This document shows, one piece after another, positions 786 to 38,986 of a stretch of DNA of 64,000 bases; positions within the stretch are counted from its first letter, which is position 1; each line of letters starts with the position of its first letter. The position numbers were made by a program, and so were the translations under genes. The stretch is from the NCBI GenBank assembly GCA_028287565.1, contig JAQBPK010000054.1, positions 1-64,000 of the forward strand, given 5' to 3'. This DNA is from Vulcanimicrobiota bacterium (GTDB taxonomy: Bacteria > Vulcanimicrobiota > Vulcanimicrobiia > Vulcanimicrobiales > Vulcanimicrobiaceae). The notes under the pieces were generated by a model. It had not been told where the DNA came from, did no database searches, and worked only from the letters and a program-made list of their open reading frames with translations.

Positions 786-2267
<1,482 letters not shown>

Positions 2268-4738: not shown

Positions 4739-4812
4739 GCGGGCGTTGCATAATGGTAATGCCCTTGCCTTCCAAGCAAGAGTCGCGGGTTCGATTCCCG
4801 CCGCCCGCTCCA
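4739..4812 (+). tRNA. tRNA-Gly (UCC), CCA encoded; likely phage attachment locus
   Basis: GCGGGCG...CGCCCGC TCCA; CTTCCAA anticodon loop; GCGGGTTCGATTCCCGC. Confidence 0.93.
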
Positions 4813-4817
4813 TCCGA

Positions 4818-4844
4818 AAAGCCATACGGCGTATGGCTTTTTTG
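4818..4844 (+). terminator. Rho-independent terminator after tRNA-Gly
   Basis: AAAGCCATAC-GGC-GTATGGCTTTTTT hairpin plus T-run. Confidence 0.75.
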
Positions 4845-5130: not shown

Positions 5131-6321
5131 GTGGCGAATGCGGCGCGGCGATCGCGTCCCGGTGACGGCTCGGTTTATCCCATCGGCGACGGTAAGTTCA
5201 TCGCCGCGATCTCGATGGGAGGGCGCGGGAATCGCCGGTACCGCCGCGTCACCAAGCCGTCAAAGGCCGAGGCGCTCGAAGCTCTGCGCCGCCTGCGCGC
5301 GGAATGCGCCCCGCTCGCGATCCTCGACGAGCCGGCCGTCACGCTGGAAACGTACCTTGCGGCCTGGCTTCACGAGACCGTCCGGCCGGCGGTTCGTAAG
5401 ACCACGCTCGCGACGTACTCGTCCATCCTCTCGACCCACGTCTACCCGCGCCTCGGCATGGTACGGCTGGACCGGCTCACGGCCGCGCATCTGCGCAAGT
5501 TACTCGCCGATCTGGAGCGCGAAGCCGTCGGCCCGCGCCTCCGAGAGGTTGTGCACCAGCGGCTCAAAGCCGCGCTTGCCGTCGCGGTGGAGCGCGGTGC
5601 GCTGGTCAAGAACCCGATGATCGGCGTCGCGCGCCATCGTGTCCCGCGCCGCACGATGAACGTCTGGAGCGCAGAGCAAGCCCGGATGTTCCTCGACGGC
5701 ACGGCCGACCACGAGCTCGCGGCGCTGTGGCGGCTGGCACTCTCGGCGGGCCTGCGGCGCGGCGAGATCCTTGCGCTTCGCACTGTCGACTTCGACGCGC
5801 GCGGACGTCGCCTGCGCATTCAGCACACGCTTTCGGCGGCCGGCGAGCTGCTCGAGCCCAAGACCGCGGGGGCGCGGCGGGCGATCGATCTGCCGGACCG
5901 CGCCGTCGCCGCGCTGCTGGATCACCGCCAGCGTCTGCTCGCCGCGGGCCTGGGCGGCTCCCTGTGGCTGTTCCCCGTCGAAGGCAAGGACGATCCGCGG
6001 CGCGGCGAGGTCCGGCTGCCGCGCGCCGTCGCTCGCGCATTCGAGCGCGCGACCGCGGCCGTCGACGGGGCGCTTCGTGAGCAGCTGGACGCGCAGCCGG
6101 GTCGCGCGGAGCCCTCAAAACCCGGAGACGGCCTCCCGCGCATCCGGTTCCACGACCTGCGGCACACCTGCGCGACGCTCCACCTCGCGAACGGGACGCA
6201 CCCGAAGATCGTGTCGGAGATGCTCGGCCACGCCTCCATTCAGATCACGCTCGACACGTACTCGCACGTACTCCCGAGCATGCAGCGCGACGCCGCCGAC
6301 CGGTTCGACGCCGTGCTGTAG
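5131..6321 (+). CDS. int: phage integrase, tyrosine recombinase
   Basis: ALSAGLRRGEILALR, IRFHDLRHTCATLHLANG, MLGHASIQITLDTYSHV catalytic R/H-x-x-R/H/Y motifs. Confidence 0.95.
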   Translation: MANAARRSRPGDGSVYPIGDGKFIAAISMGGRGNRRYRRVTKPSKAEALEALRRLRAECAPLAILDEPAVTLETYLAAWLHETVRPAVRKTTLATYSSILSTHVYPRLGMVRLDRLTAAHLRKLLADLEREAVGPRLREVVHQRLKAALAVAVERGALVKNPMIGVARHRVPRRTMNVWSAEQARMFLDGTADHELAALWRLALSAGLRRGEILALRTVDFDARGRRLRIQHTLSAAGELLEPKTAGARRAIDLPDRAVAALLDHRQRLLAAGLGGSLWLFPVEGKDDPRRGEVRLPRAVARAFERATAAVDGALREQLDAQPGRAEPSKPGDGLPRIRFHDLRHTCATLHLANGTHPKIVSEMLGHASIQITLDTYSHVLPSMQRDAADRFDAVL

Positions 6322-6379: not shown

Positions 6380-6454
6380 CGCATTTTCGCGGCAGTTCGC
6401 GCTCGCCTTCCAGCGCGGGCTCGATGGCGCGAGCGGCGAACGGCATCGTACAAA

Positions 6455-6470
6455 CGGCACTTTAGTGCCG
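6455..6470. promoter_or_regulatory. Palindromic operator-like site A
   Basis: CGGCAC-TTTA-GTGCCG, 33 bp upstream of the small-peptide ORF. Confidence 0.6.
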
Positions 6471-6502
6471 ATTGCGCGTTTTCGCTCGAAAGGCGGTTCC
6501 CC

Positions 6503-6667
6503 GTGAATCTCTTGCTCGCGACTCTTTTAGCGCTGGCGCTCGGCGCGCCCGGCCTGTTCGACACCGGTGGCGGCGGTCCGTCGTTCGTAAGTCCGACCAC
6601 CTACGACACCGGCGGCGGCGGTCCGAGCAAAAACTGTCCGCCATCACTTCCGGACTGCATACCGTAG
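6503..6667 (+). CDS. Small secreted peptide precursor (candidate signalling peptide)
   Basis: GTG start with SD-like AAAGGCGG; MNLLLATLLALALGAPGLFDTGGGGPSFVSPTTYDTGGGGPSKNCPPSLPDCIP; hydrophobic N-terminus, duplicated DTGGGGPS, two Cys; below the ORF-track length cutoff. Confidence 0.55.
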   Translation: MNLLLATLLALALGAPGLFDTGGGGPSFVSPTTYDTGGGGPSKNCPPSLPDCIP

Positions 6668-6703
6668 GGGCGGTTCGGTCACGGCACCGAAAGATCGGTT
6701 ACC

Positions 6704-8350
6704 GTGGAGAGGCGTCGAGTTTCGGCGCCTCTTTCTCGCCCTGTGGAGGGACCGGTCATCGGACAGACAGCCCGCTCTCACCGTCACCCGGGTCCCCGCG
6801 CATCGCTCGGCGACGCCATGCGCGCGTGGTTCGCCGGGGAATTCGATCGCTGCCTGGAGCTGTGCGACCGCGTTCGCCGCAACGATCCCGACACGCGCTC
6901 GCAAGTAGCGCTGCTGCGCGCACGCGCATACCTTCGCATCGGCCGCGCGCCCGAGGCTCACCGCATTCTCTCCGACGTCTTCGTTGCGCACGGGACGCTC
7001 GACGCCTCGCTGACCGCGCAGATGCTACTGGGCGCGGCTGAGGTCCGCATCGGCGCCGTCGAAGCCGGGCTGGCACGCCTTGAAGCCGCTCAGAAGTCCG
7101 CCGCGACGGCGCATCCGACGATCCGCTCGGAGATCGCGCTGAATCGAGCGCTTGCGTACTACGCCGACGGCGACCACCGCGCCGCGAGCGCTGCCCTAGC
7201 CGACGTCGACCGCGCCAGCGACATCGTGCATGCGCGCGCGCTGGAGTACGAAGGCTGGATCGCGACCGCGCGCGGCCGGCACGACGAAGCGGCGCGGCAC
7301 TTCGTCGCCGCAATCGAGCGGCTCGACACGTGCCGCCAGCAGGATCGGTTCCTAGAGGCGAACGCCCTACAAGCGCTCTCCTACCTCGCCGCGGAGCGCT
7401 TCGACGATGCCCTGTGGTCGTTCATCGAGACGCGCGCGGCCGGCGTCGATTGGACCGCCGACGGGCTCGCACTTCCGCGTTGGTGGATCACGATGAGCTC
7501 CGCGTTCGTGCACGAGGCGGCCGGCCGGACACTCCAGGCCTTCGCCGCGGCGCGCGAGGCTGTCTATACCGCGCCGACACCCGCCTACCGCGTGCACGCG
7601 CTCCTGCGCCGGTCCATCGTGGCCCGCAACGTCGGCGAACAGTTCTCGCCGCTCGACACGCTCCACAGCGCGCGCGCCGCGTTCGACGCGATCGACCCGC
7701 GCACGCTGACGGGCGACGAGCGGACCGTGCCGCTGGTCCTCGCCGAAGCGTTCGCGCAGGTCGCCCGCGAGATGGAAAGCGCCGAGGCGCTCGACCTCGC
7801 GCGCCGGTACGAACGGCTCTACTGCGAGCTCGCGCCGATGACACGGGTCTCGGCGATGAGCCAGGATCCGCGGACGCCCGCGCTCGAGCATGCGGTCCGC
7901 GCGACGATCGCCGAGGCCGCTGGCGACACCGCGACCGCGTACGCCGCGTACAACGAGGCGTTTCGCGCCCACAAGGCGCTCGGCTTCAGGCGCCGTGCCG
8001 CCGCCTGCGCGTACCGGCTGGGCGAGCTCACGGGCTTCGACCACTTCTACGCCTACGTCGTCGAAAGCACGCGTGACGTCGACCGCTCCTACTGGCTGCG
8101 CCGTCTCATGCGCCGGCGCGAATGCGGCTACCGCGATCCGATCGCGCGCAACCTCACGCCTTCGCAGCGCGAGGTGCTTGTCGCTATCTGCCAAGGCAAG
8201 ACGAACGGCGAGATCGCGCGCCTGCGCGACCGCTCCGAATCCACCATAAAGCACATCGTGACGGAGCTGCTGCGCGCGTTCGGCGTGGAGAGCCGCGAGC
8301 AGCTCATCGTCGCGTGCGCGCGGAGATTATCGGTGGTCGAAGTCCCGTAG
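6704..8350 (+). CDS. TPR-repeat LuxR-family transcriptional regulator
   Basis: Helical TPR-like repeats through the body and C-terminal GerE HTH (LTPSQREVLVAICQGKTNGEIARLRDRSESTIKHIVTELLRAFGVESREQLI); true start uncertain. Confidence 0.8.
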   Translation: MERRRVSAPLSRPVEGPVIGQTARSHRHPGPRASLGDAMRAWFAGEFDRCLELCDRVRRNDPDTRSQVALLRARAYLRIGRAPEAHRILSDVFVAHGTLDASLTAQMLLGAAEVRIGAVEAGLARLEAAQKSAATAHPTIRSEIALNRALAYYADGDHRAASAALADVDRASDIVHARALEYEGWIATARGRHDEAARHFVAAIERLDTCRQQDRFLEANALQALSYLAAERFDDALWSFIETRAAGVDWTADGLALPRWWITMSSAFVHEAAGRTLQAFAAAREAVYTAPTPAYRVHALLRRSIVARNVGEQFSPLDTLHSARAAFDAIDPRTLTGDERTVPLVLAEAFAQVAREMESAEALDLARRYERLYCELAPMTRVSAMSQDPRTPALEHAVRATIAEAAGDTATAYAAYNEAFRAHKALGFRRRAAACAYRLGELTGFDHFYAYVVESTRDVDRSYWLRRLMRRRECGYRDPIARNLTPSQREVLVAICQGKTNGEIARLRDRSESTIKHIVTELLRAFGVESREQLIVACARRLSVVEVP

Positions 8351-8401
8351 CGTCAGCGCGCTAGCATTACAACTAACCCGTTTGTACGTTGGCGCTCTGT
8401 G

Positions 8402-8417
8402 CGGCACCAAAGTGCCG
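8402..8417. promoter_or_regulatory. Palindromic operator-like site B
   Basis: CGGCAC-CAAA-GTGCCG; 15/16 match to the reverse complement of site A. Confidence 0.6.
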
Positions 8418-8430
8418 GTAGACAAACATC

Positions 8431-8446
8431 GGTACGGCAGCGTACC
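8431..8446. promoter_or_regulatory. Second inverted repeat beside site B
   Basis: GGTACG-GCAG-CGTACC. Confidence 0.4.
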
Positions 8447-9475: not shown

Positions 9476-10246
9476 CTAAGGTGACGGAGCTGCACCGGGA
9501 CCCTCTCGTTCGAGCCGTCGTAGCGTTGCGGCAGCTGTCTTCAGAGATGGAGGAGCGTCGCCGCGACGCGCGAGGTCCTCAAGAGCTGGAACTAGCGCTT
9601 GCAACACCGCTTCGAATCGAGGTTGACGTTCGCCATTATCGGTTCGCTGGCGCGTCTGCTGCTGCGAATCTGTTAGCGCATCGGGATCCCGAAGGACCGC
9701 TCCCAGAAGAAGGTCTGGAAACGCCCCGATAAACGTCCCGCGCGACGGGCTGACGTCGAATAGCTTGGCGGCCGTCTCCGCGGCCTGTCGTTCGACGAGT
9801 TCCTTCTCTGCGGGATTTCCTTCGATGGTCGTTATCGCGGCTCGCACGGCTTCACTCGGCGTGCGTCGCTCGTTTACCGCGAACCGCATCATCTCCACAA
9901 AGCCTTCAAGGGCGGGCTGAATGTTCGGCCGGGCGTCAAACGCGTCGGCGACTCGCGCGCCGAAGTAGATTATCCGCGCGACCCCTTGCGGCGTCAGAGG
10001 CCGTACGTCGGTAATGGTCACCGCTCGGGAATCCTGGCGGCTCGGCTCGCGCTCGCCCGCAAGCTCCCATGGTGAGATGCCAAGCCGCTTACAGAGCCGG
10101 AGCGCGGCGTCGAGCTTCAGCGTTTGAGTGTCGCCGCGGCGCAGCTTCCGCACCGCTCCCTCTGTGAGGTCGAGTAGGCTAGCGACCTCAACGTCCCGCA
10201 GGTCGGATGTCAGGCGGTTGAAGCGATCGGTGAACGTCTCGGGCAC
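9476..10246 (-). CDS. XRE-family repressor (cI-like)
   Basis: N-terminal HTH (EVASLLDLTEGAVRKLRRGDTQTLKLDAALRLCKRLG); divergent from Cro-like gene; GTG start. Confidence 0.75.
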   Translation of the reverse strand: MPETFTDRFNRLTSDLRDVEVASLLDLTEGAVRKLRRGDTQTLKLDAALRLCKRLGISPWELAGEREPSRQDSRAVTITDVRPLTPQGVARIIYFGARVADAFDARPNIQPALEGFVEMMRFAVNERRTPSEAVRAAITTIEGNPAEKELVERQAAETAAKLFDVSPSRGTFIGAFPDLLLGAVLRDPDALTDSQQQTRQRTDNGERQPRFEAVLQALVPALEDLARRGDAPPSLKTAAATLRRLEREGPGAAPSP

Positions 10247-10294
10247 GACTTTTAATATCCGTCCAAAAGTCCTTACTTAGGTCTTGACTTGCCG

Positions 10295-10312
10295 ACCGTA
10301 CTTTGGTACGGT
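10295..10312. promoter_or_regulatory. Operator-like palindrome (site C) in the cI/cro divergent promoter
   Basis: ACCGTAC-TTTG-GTACGGT perfect inverted repeat, downstream of a TTGACT -35-like hexamer at 10284. Confidence 0.7.
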
Positions 10313-10320
10313 TCGCACAT

Positions 10321-10546
10321 GGACGTCAGAGCGGCGCTGAAAGAAGCTGCCGAGCGCAATGGATGGTCCCCGACTCGCGTCGCCGCCGAGGTTGGCATGA
10401 GCGAGGCGGGCATTCGGAAGTTCTACGCTGGCGACAGCGCGACGCTCAAGAGCGACGCGCTCGTCGTACTGATGCGCGAACTCCCCGGCTTCGCTGAAAA
10501 GCTCGGCTTCGACCCTCGACCCGAGGCGAACGGTCATGCAGCCTAG
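10321..10546 (+). CDS. XRE-family HTH protein (Cro-like)
   Basis: WSPTRVAAEVGMSEAGIRKFYAGDSATLKSDALVVLM; ATG at 10321, very short leader. Confidence 0.75.
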
Positions 10547-38092: not shown

Positions 38093-38986
38093 ATGGCCGA
38101 CGCGATCGTGCTCGTCGAACCCGCACTGCCGGCTGAAAAACGCGCTTATAAAATAAGCGACGGACGCAGGCCGACCGATCCCGAGCTGATCGACCTCTGG
38201 CTGCACGGTCGACCGCGCAACACCGTCACGGCCTACCGACGTGACGTGCGCCGGATGCTCGACTTCATCGGCGTCCCGATCGGGGCCGTCCGACTCGTCG
38301 ACCTTCACGCCTTCGCTGACTCGCTCGTCGGCGAACCTGCGACACGCAAGCGCGTGCTGAGCGCGACGAAGAGCCTACTGAAGTTCCTGGCCACGGCCGG
38401 CGCGATCGAGTACAACGTCGGCGCAGCGCTACGCGTGCCAAAGGGCCGCGACGCCCTGGCGGACCGGATCCTCACCAAGGCCGACACGAAAAAGTTGCTC
38501 CGCTCGGGGCGACGGCCGCGCGACACCGCGCTACTGCGCCTGCTCTACGAGGGCGGCTTCCGCCGCGGCGAGCTCGCATCGCTGCGCTGGGTCGGAGTCG
38601 TTGCCGGCGAGGGATGCGCCTACGTCACCGTCGTGGGTAAGGGTTCGAAGACCCGGACCGTCCGCATCTCCAGCGACACGCTGGCCGCGCTCAACGCTCT
38701 CCGGGGCGAGGCGGCTGACGATGCGCCGGTCTTCACCGGACGACGCGGTGCCGCGCTCTCGGAGTCGCAGGTCTGGCGCGTCGTTCGCGGCGCTGCGAAG
38801 CGGGCGGGGCTGACCAAGCCGGTCAGTCCGCACTTCCTGCGACACGCGCACGCCTCGCACGCGCTCGACGCCGGCGCCCCGATCGCGCTCGTCCGCGACA
38901 CGCTCGGCCATTCGAGCGTCGCGGTCACGGACCGCTACCTTCACGCACGGCCAACCGAATCGAGCGGCAAGTACCTGCGGCTCTGA
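38093..38986 (+). CDS. XerC/D-like tyrosine recombinase
   Basis: Core-binding domain plus LYEGGFRRGELASLRW, VSPHFLRHAHASHAL, LGHSSVAVTDRYLHA. Confidence 0.92.
   Translation: MADAIVLVEPALPAEKRAYKISDGRRPTDPELIDLWLHGRPRNTVTAYRRDVRRMLDFIGVPIGAVRLVDLHAFADSLVGEPATRKRVLSATKSLLKFLATAGAIEYNVGAALRVPKGRDALADRILTKADTKKLLRSGRRPRDTALLRLLYEGGFRRGELASLRWVGVVAGEGCAYVTVVGKGSKTRTVRISSDTLAALNALRGEAADDAPVFTGRRGAALSESQVWRVVRGAAKRAGLTKPVSPHFLRHAHASHALDAGAPIALVRDTLGHSSVAVTDRYLHARPTESSGKYLRL

Follow-up and report, generated by a model that had tools for sequence, protein, structure and literature searches.

A prophage-borne cassette of a repeat-containing pro-peptide and a TPR-LuxR protein, a putative peptide-pheromone system of a bacterial family in Candidatus Eremiobacterota

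The window, i.e. the whole stretch of 64,000 nucleotides analysed here, carries in the lysogeny region of a prophage a small gene for a repeat-containing pro-peptide, directly followed by a gene for a TPR-LuxR protein, and this locus is very probably an autoregulated peptide-pheromone/receptor cassette whose phage copy likely reports lysogen density. The TPR-LuxR protein belongs to a family that is expanded within one order of Candidatus Eremiobacterota (WPS-2). The cassette is composed of the following elements (window coordinates; dyads carry no strand):

6455-6470: dyad CGGCACTTTAGTGCCG, candidate operator for the TPR-LuxR protein, located 32 nt 5' of the start codon of the peptide gene
6503-6667, plus strand: pro-peptide gene (54 aa) with a GTG start and the SD-like sequence gaaaggcgg
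6560-6583, plus strand: DTGGGGPS copy 1, candidate mature peptide (codon comparison)
6605-6628, plus strand: DTGGGGPS copy 2, synonymously distinct from copy 1 (codon comparison)
6629-6664, plus strand: tail KNCPPSLPDCIP, similar to the NCPESGCPDPTPTP tail found after GGGP in L114, L160, L131 and L185
6704-8350, plus strand: receptor/regulator gene (548 aa), with an N-terminal TPR superhelix (residues ~33-455) and a C-terminal LuxR/GerE HTH (residues 483-541)
8402-8417: second dyad CGGCACCAAAGTGCCG, just 3' of the receptor gene
8431-8446: third dyad GGTACGGCAGCGTACC

The small open reading frame was recovered exactly as the initial annotation had described it (54 aa, 6503-6667, GTG start, SD-like site), and its gap of 36 nt to the regulator gene at 6704-8350 was reproduced. 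The encoded pro-peptide is comprised of a hydrophobic export-type N-terminus, the repeat units and a Cys-containing tail, the export signal being called from hydrophobicity, both in the window and in the family propeptides. The two DTGGGGPS copies differ in codons (GGT/GGC and TCG/AGC), and since the TCG/AGC serine switch requires more than one substitution, it is the peptide sequence that has been kept and not the DNA. No other occurrence of the DTGGGGP DNA pattern was found in the genome or in 12 relatives. Pro-peptides of this kind are short, so that length-filtered annotation easily misses them.

In the TPR-LuxR protein, Pfam places a GerE domain at residues 483-536 (E 1.3e-7) and gives weak matches to TPRs; an N-terminal profile built from homologues matches designed as well as natural TPR structures in the PDB. 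An AlphaFold model, computed for the window receptor only and from seven input sequences, displays an all-helical superhelix plus the HTH (pLDDT 87.6, pTM 0.79). Residues 1-28 are modelled as disordered, so the true start is possibly located downstream; counted from the conserved start the receptor would be ~510-520 aa long, as compared with 548 aa as annotated. Neither an export signal nor a membrane domain was found in the receptor, and Pfam revealed no NTPase or autoinducer-binding domain. Among viral proteins, the BFVD entries A0A8S5Q1D2 and A0A8S5PZX9 (Siphoviridae sp. ctOCb13; 568 and 607 aa) match the fold of the model best (E ~1e-4); they are possibly other phage TPR regulators.

The collections were scanned with profile A2, which is narrower than the first profile A1, the latter being without sufficiently conserved patterns. 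The genome of the window, which the named homologues indicate to be a relative of Candidatus Eremiobacterota (WPS-2), contains 25 matches to the TPR-LuxR protein, 17 of which are full receptors by stricter, later criteria, and members of the family are present in 68 of 99 genomes. Beyond the order, a single one of the 108 genomes sampled in the phylum passes 1e-45; it belongs to a different family of the same class. The set used for the analyses below contains 140 main-group receptors and 16 lower-scoring homologues.

Small ORFs next to these receptors were searched for as frames of 30-110 aa whose N-terminus is strongly hydrophobic and whose tail is polar. Such an ORF is located directly upstream and on the same strand for 71 of 135 testable receptors, versus 1.9 (at most 4) in Markov shuffles, and a convergent one lies just downstream for 14 of 133, versus 1.65 in shuffles; the lower-scoring homologues have none (0/16). 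An earlier control set gave 67/147, compared with 6/147 on the antisense strand, 11/844 at random window positions and 81/5115 at other locus positions. Under relaxed start criteria 94 of the 140 receptors have a peptide; hand filtering under stricter rules leaves 86, distributed over 34 genomes and 14 genera, and in the genome of the window 13 of the 17 full receptors are accompanied by one. As a rule the tails contain a D..GG(G)P-like unit, in many cases as 2-7 copies (motif counts: GGP 42, D..GG 63, GPPG 8), and a lipobox-like motif occurs in 25. The pairing of an export-type repeat pro-peptide with a TPR-LuxR regulator, as proposed in the initial annotation, was supported, and because the same arrangement recurs beside most of its members, the small ORF is beyond chance.

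The same annotation had named two observations that would speak against the pairing, a lack of conservation of the small ORF and the occurrence of the receptor without it in close relatives. The first was contradicted, as the ORF is conserved across the family and mostly under purifying selection. The second held in part: most receptors are paired, and many that have no upstream peptide carry one in convergent or divergent orientation, but 46-54 of 140, including the near relatives L005, L029 and L032, are without a recognized peptide, and one peptide-less set forms its own clade. These receptors possibly represent missed short ORFs, lost peptides, or proteins sensing the peptide of another cassette. 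At L004 (G000, contig C24), which already has an upstream peptide, a second signal-type peptide ORF at 1111-1383 (plus strand; MSIVIAALAALFLVAPP...YDVLPPYGL) is convergent to the receptor and resembles the L009 peptide; it is possibly an orphan signal, or what is left of a decayed cassette.

The repeats of the tails are preserved at the protein level. Exact repeats of at least 7 aa were found in 23 tails, versus 0.02 in shuffled tails, and include STHGGAVD x7 (L164), SISGGGPA x7 (L101, convergent), DSVGGGPPS x4 (L117), DTPGGPIP x3 (L145) and YNGSGPPG x3 (L063, convergent), as well as EGSHPPY x3 (L035) and DGTLPPY x2 (L034) from another family of the order. Throughout, the copies have the same amino acids with synonymous codon differences; the uninterrupted arrays of L164 and L101, whose core units do not vary in amino acids, are the ones free of bias in the choice of units, as the other repeat units were chosen by amino-acid likeness. 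Orthologous propeptides display dN/dS values of 0.06-0.38 in most unsaturated pairs, with an excess of third-position differences; in several pairs the synonymous sites are saturated, and constraint is weaker in the convergent group (0.28-0.98). These values are from other propeptides of the family, the window peptide being without a close enough orthologue. A chance ORF, or a low-complexity artefact of high-GC DNA, would be in line with a short, GC-rich and glycine-rich frame having a GTG start; given the enrichment next to receptors, the purifying selection, the synonymous differences between repeats and the recurrence in 34 genomes, the probability of such an origin is negligible.

Similarity between peptide tails tracks receptor identity (Mantel r 0.21, p 0.001), a match which is modest and in part due to common descent. 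This bears on the function of the small protein, which might instead be a secreted bacteriocin- or RiPP-like effector, with the TPR-LuxR protein controlling its expression without sensing. Multi-copy cores are known in some RiPP precursors, and some of the tails contain cysteines. On the other hand, genes for modification, immunity or dedicated export were not seen directly beside the window cassette; its partner folds as a TPR superhelix, and such superhelices are often peptide-binding; the peptides have diverged in step with their receptors; and the diversity of peptides in one genome suits private channels better than toxins. We consider an effector improbable and a pheromone the better interpretation; under either one the regulator should control the peptide, as a dyad precedes the peptide gene.

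The two window-type dyads that flank the cassette compare with 0.02 expected in the window. Across the family, 49 of 71 cassettes have a perfect dyad in the 150 nt that precede the peptide start, frequently between -60 and -20, versus 17.8 (maximum 22) in shuffles. The dyad sequence is common to close receptors (GGTACGATCGTACC in L027, L028 and L041) and different between groups, and the more identical two HTHs are, the more alike are their dyads, with a similarity of 0.92 where HTH identity exceeds 80% (permutation p 0.001). When the genome was searched with the window dyad pattern, 8 sites were found versus 7 for a control pattern, and those with an A/T-type spacer were only 6455-6470 and 8402-8417. 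For this reason no distant targets are claimed, and local action is likely, since the sole A/T-spacer sites flank the cassette itself. An 11-mer, CGTACAAACGG, is located at 6447-6457 near the first dyad and, inverted, at ~8378-8388 near the second; this pair is possibly a shared promoter or operator element.

The surroundings of the cassette are defined by these features (window coordinates):

4765-4841, plus strand: attL, one copy of a direct repeat that spans the 3' part of the tRNA-Gly(tcc) gene (4739-4812) plus flanking sequence
5131-6321, plus strand: tyrosine integrase of the prophage (Phage_integrase, E 1.2e-15)
9476-10246, minus strand: candidate cI-like HTH repressor (HTH_26, E 0.003, weak)
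10289-10546, plus strand: candidate cro-like small HTH protein, divergent from the repressor (HTH_31, E 2.5e-4, below cut-off)

The direct repeats, anchored in the tRNA-Gly gene, and the phage genes define a genuine prophage of ~83.3 kb around the cassette. The partner copy of attL is located at contig position 88110-88185, beyond the window; the repeat is ~77 bp long with one 1-bp indel, and the size of the element follows from the pair 4765-4841 / 88110-88185. The prophage encodes RecE, RecT, a DnaB-like helicase and DNA methyltransferases, and its virion genes were recognized in part (a weak major-head match and a lytic tail protein), so that integrase, attachment repeats, replication genes and part of the virion genes of a temperate phage are present. 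The cassette has the integrase on one side and the divergent cI/cro-like pair on the other, and its placement between int and cI/cro in the initial annotation was borne out, with weak HTH_26 and HTH_31 matches for the pair. A second tyrosine integrase is encoded mid-prophage (38093-38986, plus strand; phrog_1, E 8e-43), which may indicate a nested element or a recombined phage.

A search for a close relative of the window prophage that could be used for comparison found none; the relatives of its integrase are at most 39% identical, and their loci yielded no cassette. Among the 17 cassettes of the genome, only the window copy has an integrase neighbour. No relatives of the receptor were found in the viral collections scanned, and neither these collections, nor the genome copies, nor the loci of the integrase relatives yielded a second phage-borne cassette. 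The idea of a peptide system specific to phages was rejected on these grounds: the family is bacterial, with 17 receptors in this genome, 13 of them with peptides, and the viral collections scanned yielded no relative.

From these data we infer a mechanism that extends from export, processing and import to peptide binding, the sign of regulation and the role in the phage. The pro-peptide would be exported via its hydrophobic N-terminus and trimmed, extracellularly or in the periplasm, to short D-x-(G)GG-P-type peptides; the product of the window would be two DTGGGGPS peptides or a slightly longer form. At a sufficient outside concentration, an oligopeptide permease would return the peptide to the cytoplasm, for which the genome has the capacity with 17 SBP_bac_5 proteins, although these are common proteins and thus permissive only. 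The returned peptide is predicted to bind the TPR superhelix of the adjoining TPR-LuxR protein and to alter the contact of its LuxR HTH with the dyads at 6455-6470 and 8402-8417, which would result in autoregulation and a local output. Related bacteria carry many cassettes that differ in peptide and dyad, so that every cassette probably serves as a private channel.

A temperate phage presumably acquired one such cassette in its lysogeny region, where it would most likely inform the lysis-lysogeny decision about the local lysogen density. This role is suggested by position, the family being bacterial and neither a viral relative nor a close relative of the prophage having been found. A serious alternative, to which we give an appreciable but clearly smaller likelihood, differs in the phage role only: the peptide would be a signal, and the phage cassette a host-directed cargo (moron) that rewires bacterial density responses. 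It would agree with the bacterial nature of the family, in which phage-borne cassettes account for 1 of the 17 in the genome, and phages are known to encode quorum-sensing systems with a predicted influence on the behaviour of the host (PMC10075063). The location of the cassette within the int / cI-cro lysogeny region, and the flanking of the cassette by the sole A/T-spacer dyads of the genome, which suggests local action, favour lysogen-density sensing over a host-directed cargo.

The predicted system resembles known ones in its logic and differs from them in its parts. Peptide quorum sensing via cytoplasmic TPR receptors has been described for the RRNPPA family of Bacillota (Rap-Phr, NprR-NprX, PlcR-PapR, Rgg-SHP, PrgX, AimR-AimP), with which it shares a gene for an exported pro-peptide adjoining that of a cytoplasmic TPR receptor, many paralogous pairs per genome, receptors without HTH (Rap there, the 14 TPR-only proteins among the 140 receptors here), and tandem pheromone copies in the pro-peptides, 2-7 here and up to 8 in Phr (PMC11343458). 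In contrast, it is found in Eremiobacterota instead of Bacillota and shows no sequence match; in RRNPPA proteins the HTH (for Rap, a 3-helix bundle) is N-terminal and the TPRs are C-terminal (PMC9765709), whereas the Eremiobacterota receptors have N-terminal TPRs and a C-terminal LuxR/GerE HTH and are 500-550 aa long, with the peptide gene usually upstream and sometimes convergent, D..GGGP units, and some lipobox precursors. RRNPP_detector uses as signature a pro-peptide of 10-100 aa with an export signal, at -60 to 400 bp from a receptor of 250-500 aa with TPRs (PMC10075063). The window pro-peptide (54 aa, 36-nt gap, export signal by hydrophobicity only) falls within this range and the receptor has the TPRs, but its length (548 aa, or ~510-520 aa from the conserved start) lies outside, and it has neither the N-terminal HTH nor the homology to an RRNPPA subfamily. 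Despite the same logic, the system was not filed under RRNPPA or arbitrium, owing to the different build of the receptor and the absence of RRNPPA among the listed matches.

With arbitrium (AimR-AimP-aimX of SPbeta-like phages), the cassette has in common a peptide-receptor pair in a temperate lysogeny region, and the dyad after the receptor gene could, speculatively, drive an aimX-like output; an aimX counterpart was not identified at the window cassette. Receptor and peptide are unrelated to those of arbitrium, and the gene order is peptide-receptor here and receptor-peptide there. A small secreted peptide adjoining a TPR regulator near a phage integrase could point to true arbitrium with a divergent AimR, but the domain order is inverted, with TPRs first and the LuxR HTH last, and RRNPPA proteins are absent among the listed PDB profile matches and the 50 best fold matches, which makes homology extremely unlikely. 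On the basis of the viral-collection scans and the profile and fold comparisons, AimR homology was rejected and the receptor does not qualify as an AimR homologue. The lack of sequence relation and the genuine prophage lysogeny region support the earlier proposal of a system analogous but unrelated to AimR/AimP. Finally, MalT/LAL-type TPR-like LuxR regulators and LuxR solos have a C-terminal GerE HTH and a helical-repeat sensor part as well, but the window receptor is without their NTPase or autoinducer-binding domain (Pfam) and has a dedicated, adjoining peptide gene.

A literature search, with preprints and most subscription journals outside its range, found no published account of peptide signalling in Eremiobacterota or of TPR-LuxR/peptide pairs; Firmicutes and viruses were the groups surveyed for RRNPP systems (PMC10075063). 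We are marginally inclined to regard the cassettes as an order-wide, independent peptide language outside Bacillota, built on TPR-LuxR receptors and exported precursors of several copies, with more than 12 private channels in a single genome, each having a peptide and an operator of its own, and one of which was captured by a phage to count lysogens. If true, cytoplasmic TPR peptide signalling would have evolved more than once, with a second, unrelated receptor family; a means of communication could be predicted for Eremiobacterota, an uncultured phylum of soil and peat; and the many natural triplets of peptide, receptor and operator would allow the divergence of specificity to be studied. The phage copy makes it testable whether arbitrium-like decisions are built from bacterial signalling genes outside Bacillota.

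Several variants were observed within the family. Receptors ending before the LuxR HTH include L164, L167, L170-L172, L174, L178, L179, L030, L031, L042, L087 and L088; several TPR-only receptors retain the peptide gene, and L030, L031 and L042 retain the dyad too. The members of the peptide-less clade L067, L077, L078, L079, L165 and L166 are preceded by proteins with, as judged by eye, carboxypeptidase-regulatory-like ends. Divergent from the receptors of L012, L033, L056 and L066 is a conserved gene for a small membrane protein, DUF1232-like by eye, with the motif LSPLNxLGDIPLLGxxDDAALL.
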